Shown in pieces: positions 17,001-61,950 of a stretch of 64,000 nt of DNA (positions are counted from its first letter, which is position 1; every line of letters starts with the position of its first letter). Source of the stretch: Mesostigma viride (lineage: Eukaryota > Streptophyta > Mesostigmatophyceae > Mesostigmatales > Mesostigmataceae); NCBI GenBank assembly GCA_009746045.1, contig RPFO01000213.1:5691261-5755260 (forward strand), given 5' to 3'. Made by a program: the position numbers and the translations under genes. The notes beneath the pieces were generated by a model. The model was not told the origin of the DNA. It did not search any database and worked only from the letters and a program-made list of their open reading frames with translations.

Positions 17001-19102
17001 GCACTAGGGTATCTTACAGGCAGACCCCACAACATCACCATCATCGGTGACACCCATAACCTAATTATCTGCCCACCCAGCCCCGTCCAATGAAGTTCTG
17101 CACCCAGTGGTTGTTGTGTATACAATGACGCTAATGGAAACAGCACGGTCCAGACCAGGCTGTGCAGTCCTTGCATAGTTGCTAATATGTAGATAGCAAT
17201 GCAACCCACTGTTAGAATGAAAGCCCCAATGGGCAGCTTACAGTTGAAAGTGCAGCTGGGTCCACCTTGTGGTAGAAAGTGCGCCTTTGCACGAACCCTC
17301 CAGATATGAAACCCCATTCAGCTTAGCCCCACACCCGTGCAGCTCTCCTTCCAAATTTCCAACACCGAAACGCACCACTGTAAGGCTTCCATTTCGGCAA
17401 TCATGCGGCATTTACTGGCCAGCCTACCCGGCGATTTTAGCCAAAGTGCAAAAATGAGTAACACAAGCGGTTTATTACAACTACCCTCAAAAAGGGCTCC
17501 TTACCCCTAGGCATAAGGAAGCGTTCTGCGTTGCGACCAGGTCCGGTGCTATACTACCTCCAGTTTCCCACAAACAAGTTTTGCCACAACTTATACCAAC
17601 TCATATATCGACTTATATACCGACAAATATATCGACAAATATACCTACACACATACCGACACATATACCGACACAGATACCGACAAATATACCGACACAA
17701 CACATATTATACCGACATATTAATAAATTTATTTATTTAAAACATATCTCCATTGGGAGCATATGTAAAACATAGAACCGAGAGGGGGCACATGGGTCTT
17801 AATACATTCTAGGCTACAACCTGCAGGTGGGGGATGTAAACAACCACCTACTCCGGGTGCACGAGGTGCACCTGCACCATCATACCAAAAAGGCCTGGCA
17901 TGGGGTGGAAGATGATTATGGCTAGGCAATGGCTAGGGCAGGGCATCCCAGCAGAGAGTGACTCTCTGCGTGGACACAGCATGACAAACTACTTAAAACG
18001 CTATACCGACACATACCTCAAGTTTATTTGCCCGCGTACTGTCGCCGCATAGCTCGCACAGCACGCTCCGATACTGGCACGTGTCACGGTGGGTCTTCAG
18101 GTTACGGCGCTGCAGCTGCACGGGGCAGGCCGCGGCGTCGATCGGGCAGGGGATGACCGCGGCGAGGCACGTCAATTCCAGGTGGGCCTTCATGGACCCC
18201 AGGGGGACCTCCGCGTTGCAGCCATCGCTTGCGTGGTCGCACGTGACGACGAGCTCGTCCAACTTCTTGCGCACGATACGGTGGGCTCCCGTCAGGCCCA
18301 GCCTCGTGAGCACGGTGCCGCAGTTGGGCGCGGGGCACACTCCCCCTTTCCCCAGCACCGCGAACGCGCACGGGGAGCATAGTGCGTGCTGGCAGGCACC
18401 CTCCAGTGGGCTCACCAGGATGTGGTTGCAGTGGTAGCAGATGACCTCCTCGGGCGCGGGGGGGTTAACGACGCGGTCTGGGTGGAGACCCGGCGCCGCC
18501 TGGGCAGGGAGGAGTTTCCGTGAGGGTGAGAATTGGTGGGCAGTGCATGTCCGAGATTGCCAAGAATAAGAGGGAATAGAGCACGATAATGACAAGGAAT
18601 AAAAAAGTCGAAGAAATGCGCCTGCCTGGTGTGATGAGGTGTTTTGAGTATGGAGCCATCAACAAGAGGTAAAAAGTTGGTGTTTGACTTTTGCGGGTCA
18701 TGGTAACATGGAATATGTCCATGCGATGGCCACGATGCACGAGGGTGTCGATGCTGTGTTTGCACGCTCGACAACATGCCTTTGTTTTTATCCATTATGT
18801 TCAACTAGAACACATGTATTATGATATAACTTGGTAATAATATTGATGACAGATCCCTGCTTTAGGATCACACTATGTTTCTGCACTATGGTTCAATATA
18901 CTGTATACATTCTTTCACGTAATTCAAACTCCGCACAAATATACATTACATGCCAGAAGCTGCCAGGTCGAGACGCATTACAACTAGATACTGAAAGTCG
19001 ACATTACGTACATGGACATTTCCAGTCCGCATGAAAACTTACCGATACCTCGGCGCCGGCTGGCGGTGTCGACGGCGGTGTCGACGGCCGGCCGTTATTC
19101 AT
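11003..19102 (-). CDS. RING and TRAF-type zinc-finger protein with 32 tandem fingers
   Basis: Five minus-strand exons join in phase 0: 19102-19043 (ATG, 20 codons), 18499-18017, 16294-13170, 12287-11985 and 11131-11003 (TGA). Exon 2 has a C3HC4 RING (VICYHC, then CQHALCSPC, then CPAPNC) plus TRAF-type fingers, so ubiquitin E3 ligase activity is likely from family knowledge. Exon 3 holds 32 copies of a 30-residue finger, spacing C-x5-C-x11-H-x4-C (PCTNEGGCGQTMPR, then LPDHVKL), closed by one divergent finger. Exon 4 is a Leu/Glu/Lys-rich coiled coil. Exon 5 encodes a short C-terminus, VKCSGCKRLRLLP then RWVC, resembling part of a CW-type zinc finger. Exon 3 is 3,125 bases and one C is missing near 13985-13990 compared with every other unit. 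Restoring it gives 1,042 codons and phase 0, for about 1,366 residues in all. So this is either a sequencing slip or an inactivating frameshift. The gene at 37.3-41.1 kb is a paralogue with few fingers. Confidence 0.85.
11572..11699. repeat. TAG trinucleotide microsatellite
   Basis: About 42 uninterrupted TAG units, within the last intron of the RING/TRAF-finger gene. A short CA run lies just before it (11514-11532). Poly-Tyr and poly-Thr frames are artefacts. Confidence 0.95.
12428..12468. repeat. C tract followed by A tract
   Basis: A nearly pure C run of about 28 bases then an A run of about 12, in the intron between exons 3 and 4 of the RING/TRAF-finger gene. A similar C-then-A junction occurs near 2315. 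Confidence 0.8.
13257..16160 (-). repeat. 90-bp coding minisatellite, 32 units
   Basis: The exact 90-base period encodes the 30-residue zinc fingers. Units are nearly identical even at silent sites, which indicates recent expansion or ongoing homogenisation. Most differences fall in about ten bases encoding the residues either side of the last zinc-binding Cys. The long plus-strand frames over this region (13158-14069, 13967-16339) are shadows of the repeat. Confidence 0.95.
17595..17722 (-). repeat. 12-bp array resembling the intron's own 5' splice site
   Basis: On the minus strand the array is built of GTATATGTGTCG, GTATCTGTGTCG and GTATGTGTGTAG units. The donor of this intron at 18016 reads GTATGTGTCGGTATA, the same motif. 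The array lies about 300 bases inside the intron that starts at that donor. Confidence 0.7.
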
Positions 19103-21321
19103 GAGGTGAGCAGCGAGGTGAAACAGCGAGGTGAAGCTGATAGGTGAAGCATATAGGTGAAGCAGCAAGCTGATGCCACTATTTCTACTATACACCTCGC
19201 TAATTGAACCCCGATTACCCTCGGACTATCGATGTTAGGTGGAAACCTTCAGCTACGTGCGCGCCAAAAGGCCGCCTTTGGCATGTTACAAGTTTGGACA
19301 CCATACGCCTGTGTCCAAGTGCGCGGCTTTGATGTTTCGTACATTGTGGAACCCATTTATTCCGGAGATGCAATCAATATACACATCCAATGATGTACTG
19401 GTTACGGCAAACCGAAACGGACATGGCCAGCTACCAGCGTGAGAGACACTAGGAAATACTGGTACTAGTACTAGTACTGTTATCTATAAACACAATTTGA
19501 CGAAGAGTGCCCACGTTACTTCATTGGTTTCGTCGACATCGACGATATCTGGCCCATCGCCAGCTGTGCTCTTAGCTTGTATGCGTAATCAAGACAGTAA
19601 ACCTCAGCGACATCAAGAACCATGTTTGCGTGCTGGAATTCGTATGTTCCGACTTCAATTCTTCAAGACATATGCGTATGCTGTACATATCGATCCAGCA
19701 GATCAGCTGTCCGCGTGTTTTGCAAAATGCCGTCGTGAATTCGATACCCAAATATGCTAACATTTCTGTTTGTGGCTGTCTTCCTCGACGAAATGCCAAG
19801 TTGCCAACACATATTTGTGCAATGGAGACGTCATGATCATCATTAGGACGGCGGACGCCGTCAAGTGGATATGAACACGAAGACTTCCCCCGTATCAAGT
19901 GTACGTACTGCCTTGGGAAATAACCGAACTGAACTGAACGTACAGAACTGCTACTATTGCTGTCAGTCCTGAGTCTTGACTCCTGTCGAGTGTCGGCCGT
20001 TCGTCTGTCGATTAGATACACCGAGTTGTAACTTGTAACTTGTAACTGAGCTGATGGGGGTCGAGCCTTGATCACCGGCTCCATAATTATGGTTGTTATT
20101 AACCCTAGTTACAGGTTTAACTAGGCACCCTGCTATTTTTTTAATCTCTCGGTTGGAATAAACAACACCCATTTCCCCGGAAAATCATGATTCTAGTTGT
20201 CATTGGTTATCAATAGGAGTGCAACTGATAGCCTCTTTTAGCTCACTTGTCGGTAAGTCGGTGCCTGGCGTAGTTTGTGCGGGAAAACTGACGGACGCGG
20301 AATGGCAAACACGAAGTGAAAAACTGAACTAAAGACATGCAATTAGGACTCAATAGTTATAGTATTTGCCATTCTCATGGTCGGTGCCTTCAGTTTACTG
20401 GAATACTGAACTCGAAACTAGGTATGCACACTGACTTTGTTAGTATCCCGATGCCTCATGTTGCTCTCATGAATTTATTGGCAGGCCAGGCCCCGGGCAC
20501 CTATATGCGAACAATAAAGCCGAGTGTCGGTGGCCGGAAGCCGGCCGGCCCCCACTCAACTGAGCCGGCTCCCACGGCACAACGACTGACGGGACTGATA
20601 GAGGAAGCTAGCTTCTTTCAAATCGGATGGCACTGCGAGTATTATATATTACTTTCGTATAGATCTATTTTAGATCCCGACCCAGCTATGGGGTATATCA
20701 TTATAGTAGATCCCCTATATGGGGGTTGGGGGTGAACCCTGGTTATATGCGCCCCCAAACCCTAGCTAGTCAGGTGCGGTGAGGCTCCGGGAGCTACATG
20801 CCTTTATATTCTCTCAAGCCGGCGCCTCTGAATGAGTTCCAAGCCTATCTCTATGGCCTTTCAGTTGGACCATGAGGCAGCCCGCAGCCCTATACTGCAA
20901 ACGCTATGCTTTTGCTATGGCGAAGCCGCTTTATCGCACCCACAAAGGATGCTGGATCGTTTCGACGGGTCCAATTGTGCATCCTGTGGCATGCCTATGG
21001 CATGAGGGAAAGGAGGGGGTCTCTGCCCCCTGCCCACTGTGCACACGAGCAGGGATTAAAAGCACTCGGGTGCTCCGTGACTTCCCGACGGGAGCACGTG
21101 TTTAATTAATTATAGATCCGCTACTAGACTAATAAGACTATCCCCCACACTCCAAGCCCCTGGCTAGACTAGACAGTAGCCTAGCTAGTTCCGGCTGGTA
21201 CACACGTTACTACGCGATTGTTCATCATTCCGCGGCTCCCCAATGGGACCGCGTGCAGCCCCGACATTCAGCCTATATATCATGGTCCTGCCTAGCATGC
21301 AATTGACAAAAGCAGCTGTGA
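19103..21321. other. Intergenic, 2.2 kb
   Basis: No exon is supported. Next to the RING/TRAF-finger ATG is a short run of AGGTGAAGC-like repeats (19105-19165), probably 5' UTR. A TTAATTAA-tailed retroelement end lies at 20865-21112. Near 20640-20720 AT-rich sequence holds several GATC-containing near-repeats. Confidence 0.5.
20865..21112 (+). mobile_element. Non-LTR element 3' end, TTAATTAA tail (copy 1)
   Basis: This shares with 46600-46805 the blocks GTGGCATGCCT, TGGCATGA, GGGGGTCTCTGCCC, TGTGCACAC, GGTGCTCCGTGACT and GGGAGCACG, ending in TTTAATTAATTA. A degenerate frame (HPVACLWHEGKEG, then CPLC) is visible in this copy. Ending on a short simple tail with different 5' extents suggests 5'-truncated LINE or SINE copies. 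No reverse transcriptase is present here. Confidence 0.6.
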
Positions 21322-61846: not shown

Positions 61847-61924
61847 GTACACTCCTGAAGCGTGGTTGTTATGTATTTAGGAGTGTGCGGGGGTCTGTTT
61901 GTGGGGGAGTCTAGGTGTGAGTTT

Positions 61925-61950
61925 GGATCATCCCCACAGACGCTGGCAGT
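61925..61950 (+). other. Copy of the reductase exon 3 end
   Basis: CCCACAGACGCTGGCAGTGA resembles the exon end CCGCAGACGCTGGAG then GTACAC, 80 bases earlier. The donor GT is lost in the copy. Confidence 0.55.

Follow-up and report, generated by a model that had tools for sequence, protein, structure and literature searches.

Introns are generally held to lengthen through transposons and internal repeats, and a study by Zhuo et al. in 2007 reportedly, going by its title, concerns human introns arising from tandem arrays. The closest described systems are cases of intron gain by tandem duplication, known from 24-nucleotide arrays in fission yeast (PMC3629103), reviewed in PMC3443670 and also treated in PMC2891723. 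In these systems, a local duplication containing a splice-site motif leaves exon-like repeats in an intron, and the new intron is bounded by two of the copies. In potato RdRp (PMC4974935), a segment that includes an exon/intron edge was duplicated together with its splice signals, a single case at a 3' boundary in which a new intron was made. For the streptophyte alga Mesostigma viride, the genome paper explains the length of the introns (1142 bp on average) by repetitive elements, which occupy 30.1% of intron space (PMC6947507). Here we analyze a 64-kb window (contig C1, positions 5691261-5755260), the whole stretch of DNA under study, which is nuclear DNA of a streptophyte alga, very probably this species, and in which several introns hold copies of their own 5' junction, that is, of the exon end together with the donor. 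Local duplication that includes a splice-site motif is shared with the tandem-duplication systems, as is the likeness of the intronic repeats to the exon next to them, whereas the Mesostigma copies lie inside the intron, with the acceptor far beyond; in contrast to the potato case, they concern mainly the 5' junction, recur in several introns and show no sign of a new intron. Arrays of 103-bp and 30-bp units share the form of intronic minisatellites or variable number tandem repeats, but in Mesostigma the first unit starts in coding sequence with a working donor, and some arrays are alike over the junction core alone. Among the titles and abstract openings listed from the open-licence literature, we found no report of recurrent own-junction copies in introns.

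The initial annotation of the window had proposed such copying in six introns of five genes. We examined 23 modelled introns (three with an unknown far end were used in the 5' test alone) by aligning a query of 25 exon and 12 intron bases to the junction's own intron, with a score of at least 15 counting as a pass. Own junctions passed in 5 of the 23 introns, with scores of 29 (psu1), 28 (psu2), 23 (rbp4), 18 (pho2) and 15 (pho4). By comparison, a single one of 506 mismatched pairs of junction and foreign intron reached 15, the maximum (mean 8.9 over 462 pairs). The copies are in sense orientation: the same junctions in antisense gave no pass in the 23 introns of the window, with a top score of 11. 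Against dinucleotide shuffles, psu1, psu2, rbp4 and pho2 each gave p 1/301 and pho4 gave p 0.017; with the exon bases alone, p was 0.003 for psu1, psu2, rbp4 and pho4, and 0.033 for pho2. Windows placed in exon interiors matched in 2 of 425 cases, both from one and the same stretch, and an apparent exon-interior copy in pho2 was set aside as just one 21-column match. At the acceptor side, one of 20 introns in the window passed (akr2) as against none of 380 controls. The core of the initial observation is real, but it applies to five introns in three genes and not to six in five.

Two of the five introns belong to a gene on the minus strand for an RluA-type pseudouridine synthase, whose frame-continuous model of 323 amino acids contains psu1 and psu2. 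It is 48% identical over 322 columns to P0002, an RluA protein of metagenomic source that is probably bacterial, with zero gaps at either intron. In psu1 (44874-46059), the source junction consists of the exon end at 46060-46090 and the donor GTATGT, and seven 30-bp copies of the exon end and donor region form an array at 45729-45933; 21-25 exon bases are aligned in each copy, and the donor GT is intact in four of the seven. In psu2 (42936-44649), copies of the source junction at 44644-44674 (exon end and GTGAGG) are found at 43928-44559, six of them diverged and one a weaker match, with 22-25 exon bases and the donor region; GT is intact in five of the six. Described initially as dispersed, the psu2 copies are indeed present but lie at a spacing of around 90-180 nucleotides, the first of them 114 nucleotides in, which equals 24 exon plus 90 intron bases.

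The intron rbp4 (56928-57541, minus strand) interrupts a CELF/Bruno-like RNA-binding protein gene of seven exons that runs on the minus strand from 58764 to about 54860. Its source junction lies at 57536-57563, and three clear copies, with weaker matches between them, are found at 57177-57484 and carry 17-22 exon bases and the donor. All 426 residues of the spliced model are identical to the public protein P0121 (jgi/Mesvir1/11952), and the alignment with human CELF2 is gap-free at the rbp4 junction; among the matches listed, the next relative with an organism name is Chara.

The remaining two introns lie in a PhoPQ-related (AprA-like) gene, also on the minus strand. In pho2 (29921-31682; source junction 31677-31690), repeat detection and copy alignment revealed a tandem array at 31069-31688 with six copies of a 103-bp unit that are 98% alike, each unit comprising 6 exon bases, the donor and 97 intron bases. 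Older copies follow, with donors at 31039 and 30997 and with 21 and 11 exon bases, respectively. The exons flanking pho2 give a single PF10142 match (profile positions 142-291, E 1e-54), and this domain match alone supports the pho2 join. The gene matches jgi/Mesvir1/11947, and introns pho3 to pho6 agree with the public protein P0241, from which the position of pho5 was itself taken. In this region (29921-35171), the public model Mesvir1/11947 begins within pho2 and lacks the two upstream PhoPQ-related exons. In pho4 (24259-25636; source junction 25631-25660, with a join identical in P0241), there is one marginal copy at 25182-25230 with 21 exon bases and the donor region. This is the case initially placed at 25.16 kb, which remains marginal (score 15, p 0.017); the weak second copy proposed for it at 24.4 kb scored 11, within the control range. 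Two further proposed cases likewise fall inside that range: that at 17.6 kb scored 12, its repeated 12-mer being intron sequence, and that at 61.93 kb scored 11. The 103-bp units, the 30-bp units and the copies in psu2 and rbp4 were all recovered with independent gene models.

Among the other models, the joins in the aldo-keto reductase gene and the first TRAF gene are frame-continuous, the ankyrin and second TRAF junctions were placed by eye from the reading frames, and a probable extra intron in PhoPQ-related exon 2, where the frame breaks, was omitted from the counts. The acceptor copy in akr2 (intron 60123-61669, plus strand) comprises CAG and the exon start at 61292-61314, with a score of 16; no control pair of the 380 scored at least 15. 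This copy had not been noted in the initial annotation. Introns c10 and s2 elsewhere on contig C1 also hold an acceptor joined to its exon start ahead of the real one, so that the 3' junction, too, is copied at times.

We also analyzed 300 kb that lie on this contig at a distance of millions of bases, of which 275,167 bases were used after two pieces that were mostly N had been dropped. For this purpose, the window served to train a simple exon finder, which at threshold 14 placed 20 of its 23 training donors exactly; as training and test set were the same, this figure is optimistic. Predicted donors taken without selection at a score of at least 30 had own copies in 6 of 64 cases, compared with 6 of 768 foreign pairings; in the same set, matches were found for 5 of 578 windows in exon interiors, for 51 of 491 in intron interiors and for 4 of 71 acceptors (9 of 852 foreign). 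At a score of at least 20, the corresponding counts were 13 of 122 donors (12 of 1464 foreign), 13 of 678 exon-interior and 160 of 945 intron-interior windows, and 9 of 123 acceptors (12 of 1476 foreign). Many of these unselected exon predictions are probably false or derived from transposons. A settled set of 19 introns with both flanks fixed was chosen after the hits were known, which makes the unselected figures the safer ones. It includes nine introns of a p300/CBP-like acetyltransferase gene (Pfam PHD, HAT_KAT11 split over two exons, ZZ and TAZ), nine of about 14, the others having unclear exon bounds; five introns of a third predicted gene (u1-u5); four of a gene that we take to be sphingosine-phosphate-lyase-like, with a single weak Pfam decarboxylase match among three exons; and one flanked by two exons that are presumably aspartate-carbamoyltransferase-like. 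An acceptor match preceding the first lyase exon, other unsettled introns and genes with unjoinable exons were left out. Own 5' junctions scored at least 15 in 8 of these 19 introns (seven in the acetyltransferase gene, one in the lyase gene) compared with 4 of 722 controls, and acceptors in 2 of 19 compared with 5 of 722; antisense junctions gave no pass in this set, with a top score of 13. The initially proposed specificity for the own junction therefore holds both in the window and elsewhere on the contig.

An ungapped search with 20-mers over the junction (up to four mismatches) in all 42 introns found 27 own matches in 10 introns, where 0.02 would be expected from their density elsewhere in 344 kb; for acceptors there were 4 matches in 3 of 39 introns, with 0.08 expected. 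Introner-like elements or another dispersed repeat were considered as a source of the copies and rejected, as foreign introns rarely match and as the psu2 core, the sole core searched genome-wide, has few near-matches: with 20 bases and up to two mismatches, 19 are listed in 440 Mb, and six of these are local, namely the source junction and five of the copies in psu2. The reversed psu2 core gave no match in the same search.

Direction can be read from the proteins. The exon ends at psu1, psu2 and rbp4 are conserved protein sequence, and that at pho2 lies inside the PF10142 match, from which it follows that copying ran from exon to intron, as the initial annotation had it; for the first three introns this rests on protein alignments and for pho2 on the family match. 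The claim that introns are lengthened by the repeats is likewise supported. Whole-unit arrays are present in pho2, psu1, c10 and c13. In c10, elsewhere on the contig, the array at the 5' end carries the donor and that at the 3' end carries the acceptor and exon start. The c13 copies are 0.71-0.82 alike from -20 to +46, psu1 behaves likewise over much of its unit, and pho2, psu1 and c13 fit the description of a minisatellite, in which units arranged head to tail resemble one another along their full length. Distance of a copy from its source showed no consistent relation with identity, with mixed signs.

We consider it probable that these copies arose as local sense duplications across the junction, which were kept since splicing continues at the first donor and which then grew as minisatellites. 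The 103-bp and 30-bp arrays and the first psu2 copy, which is one 114-bp unit in, agree with such a tandem origin. Short stretches of DNA spanning the exon/intron edge would duplicate locally in the same orientation; the upstream donor would stay in use, and everything added downstream would be spliced out, so that duplications at the edge would be tolerated, unlike those within exons. The added units would then multiply as minisatellites, decay and lengthen the intron. The identity with P0121 and the gap-free alignments with the RluA protein and CELF2 fit use of the first donor. In the five window introns, splicing at any listed copy would run into a stop codon first, while in the replication genes some frames are open as far as the first copy. 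In the pooled sets, copies of the 5' junction were found in 13 of 42 introns and acceptor copies in 3 of 39 (Fisher P 0.011), an asymmetry that would be expected if duplication of the donor is better tolerated. In a gapped comparison of 21 copies from the five introns, the exon-derived part is 80% identical to the exon and the adjoining intron part 61% identical to the start of the intron, near 0.80 squared, the value that a fixed exon with drift in both intron and copy would give; this agreement may be taken as weak support for the drift account.

Several observations weigh against this reading. Shuffled sequences give 45-50% in such short gapped comparisons, so that 61% is little above them, and without gaps the intron part from +7 to +18 is near chance (0.32), a divergence beyond the neutral sum unless indels are common. 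In psu2, rbp4 and c12, the copies share a core that extends from about -20 to +6 (0.63-0.76) and no further; outside this core they reach 0.41-0.55, compared with 0.41-0.49 in shuffles, and they do not fit the description of a minisatellite. The c12 copies are regularly spaced, with one position set by eye. Simple decay of tandem units does not predict likeness confined to the core. Repeat families that include the 5' junction are more numerous (11 of 49) than the 3.06 expected from uniform seeding (P 0.00035), which is more than local duplication with tolerated donors needs, although a two- to fourfold detection bias can account for such a factor. Finally, when the query includes the donor, GT is kept by 38 of the 45 copies recovered, where 27.9 are expected; this set is biased by that choice of query and by the five pho2 copies in it, which are near-identical.

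That detection bias limits what can be said about the junction as a seed. When copies diverged by 20% were simulated, those of a constrained junction were detected in 80-94% of trials and those of drifting intron sequence in 22-42%, a two- to fourfold advantage that was nearly the same for donors and acceptors. As copies of junctions stay detectable for longer, a preference over ordinary intron sequence is not secure; the excess of 5' over 3' copies escapes that objection, the advantage being about equal at the two ends. It is this 5'/3' asymmetry that survives the caveat.

A bolder reading, in which the working 5' junction is itself a template, with some 20 exon bases and the donor hexamer recopied into its own intron by a mechanism linked to transcription or to recognition of the donor, and in which this is a main route to long introns in this alga, is conceivable, yet we think it unlikely. 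Slightly more doubtful is that the 5' junction is a hotspot, where U1 binding, an R-loop or polymerase pausing would lead to breaks or slippage that copy the exon end and donor repeatedly. Such a hotspot would suit the core-only copies and the 11 families at the 5' junction as against three at the 3' junction (3 of 49, with 2.82 expected). It would also suit the profile of 37-mer self-matches in introns of at least 500 bp, which peaks for starts at -30 to -12 (12-13 of 35 introns) and falls at 0 to +84 (5-8 of 33-35). However, the profile climbs again at +96 to +108 (10-12 of 33-35), its peak differs from +24 with P 0.054, and the detection bias favours constrained references. Moreover, there is no excess over the intron background in the window alone, where a random interior stretch would match in 3.5 to 5.6 introns and five were seen (P 0.25-0.73), or in the unselected exon set, where donors do not exceed intron-interior windows at either threshold.

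Selection on the copies, with extra donor-like sites docking U1 and so protecting long transcripts or acting as decoys that tune splicing, appears improbable. Strong donor-like sites do occur at 4.0/kb in pho2 and 6.5/kb in rbp4 compared with 0.2/kb in 17 further introns of the window, the real donors of psu1 and psu2 are equalled in score by some of their copies, and the core is better kept than the filler in three arrays. The donors in series proposed initially are accordingly found in part: the median score of real donors is reached by all seven pho2 copies and by two of three in rbp4. The donor bases themselves are nevertheless no better kept than the exon bases beside them. Among copies ascertained by exon sequence only, GT is intact in 21 of 32, with matches of 0.84 at +1 and 0.72 at +2 compared with 0.83 for exon bases; with the last three exon bases removed from the query it is intact in 12 of 21, and in hand-chosen copies in 16 of 21 where 13.8 are expected, which is near neutral. 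In addition, the roughly 20 exon bases, which U1 does not need, are kept equally. Conserved decoy donors, and with them the decoy-donor system suggested initially, were rejected on these grounds.

We give no greater credence to the view that junctions are irrelevant, introns simply being rich in tandem repeats of which some touch an exon edge by chance. Self-matching is common, with 1576 of 8225 interior 37-mers that are not of low complexity (19%) having a match in their own intron, and the excess in the window alone is not significant, nor is there any over interior windows in the unselected set. Among the window's repeat families, 4 of 27 include the 5' junction where 1.35 are expected (P 0.048), and 3 of 24 and 3 of 19 do so at stricter thresholds (P 0.13 and 0.05). 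This view is opposed by the 13 junctions seen in all 42 introns against 6.36 expected from interior stretches (P 0.0035), by the 8 against 2.81 in the replication set (P 0.0015) and by the asymmetry between the two ends. That the copies are birth marks of introns born from tandem exon arrays with proto-splice sites, a model established in other systems (PMC3443670, PMC3629103), is scarcely credible here, and intron birth by AGGT duplication was rejected, since the arrays stop well short of the acceptor, by hundreds of bases (at +344 of 1186 in psu1, +722 of 1714 in psu2, +374 of 614 in rbp4 and +936 of 1762 in pho2) and the copies are followed by donor-like sequence and not by the next exon.

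Other repeats were observed in the window. A 71-bp tandem array at 3737-5157, in an intron of the ankyrin gene, flips orientation near 4256 to give head-to-head arrays, and a series of TRAF-type zinc fingers is encoded by a 90-bp array at 13264-16187 with around 32 copies and 95% matches. Very long simple arrays fill parts of introns, with about 199 copies of GTTGGGTGG at 62233-64000 and about 324 copies of GAGG at 27638-28913. A 27-bp sequence found three times in the window (21055, 41250 and 46743) and, with two mismatches allowed, once near C1:2345010 is probably part of a transposable element. A search of viral contigs for a transposon-like pattern gave no matches.

Junction arrays may disturb gene annotation, an example being the public PhoPQ-related model that starts inside an array-bearing intron. 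They are also natural experiments in which several similar donors stand in a row and the first yields the conserved protein, so that the choice of the right 5' splice site is directly testable. Together, our analyses show decayed copies of the own 5' junction in a fair share of introns in the sampled M. viride genes, which suggests that introns here gain length in part by duplicating sequence locally across the exon edge. Should such copies be present in a tenth (6 of 64 unselected predicted donors) to a third (13 of 42 modelled introns) of introns, exon sequence would be leaking into introns across their donors.

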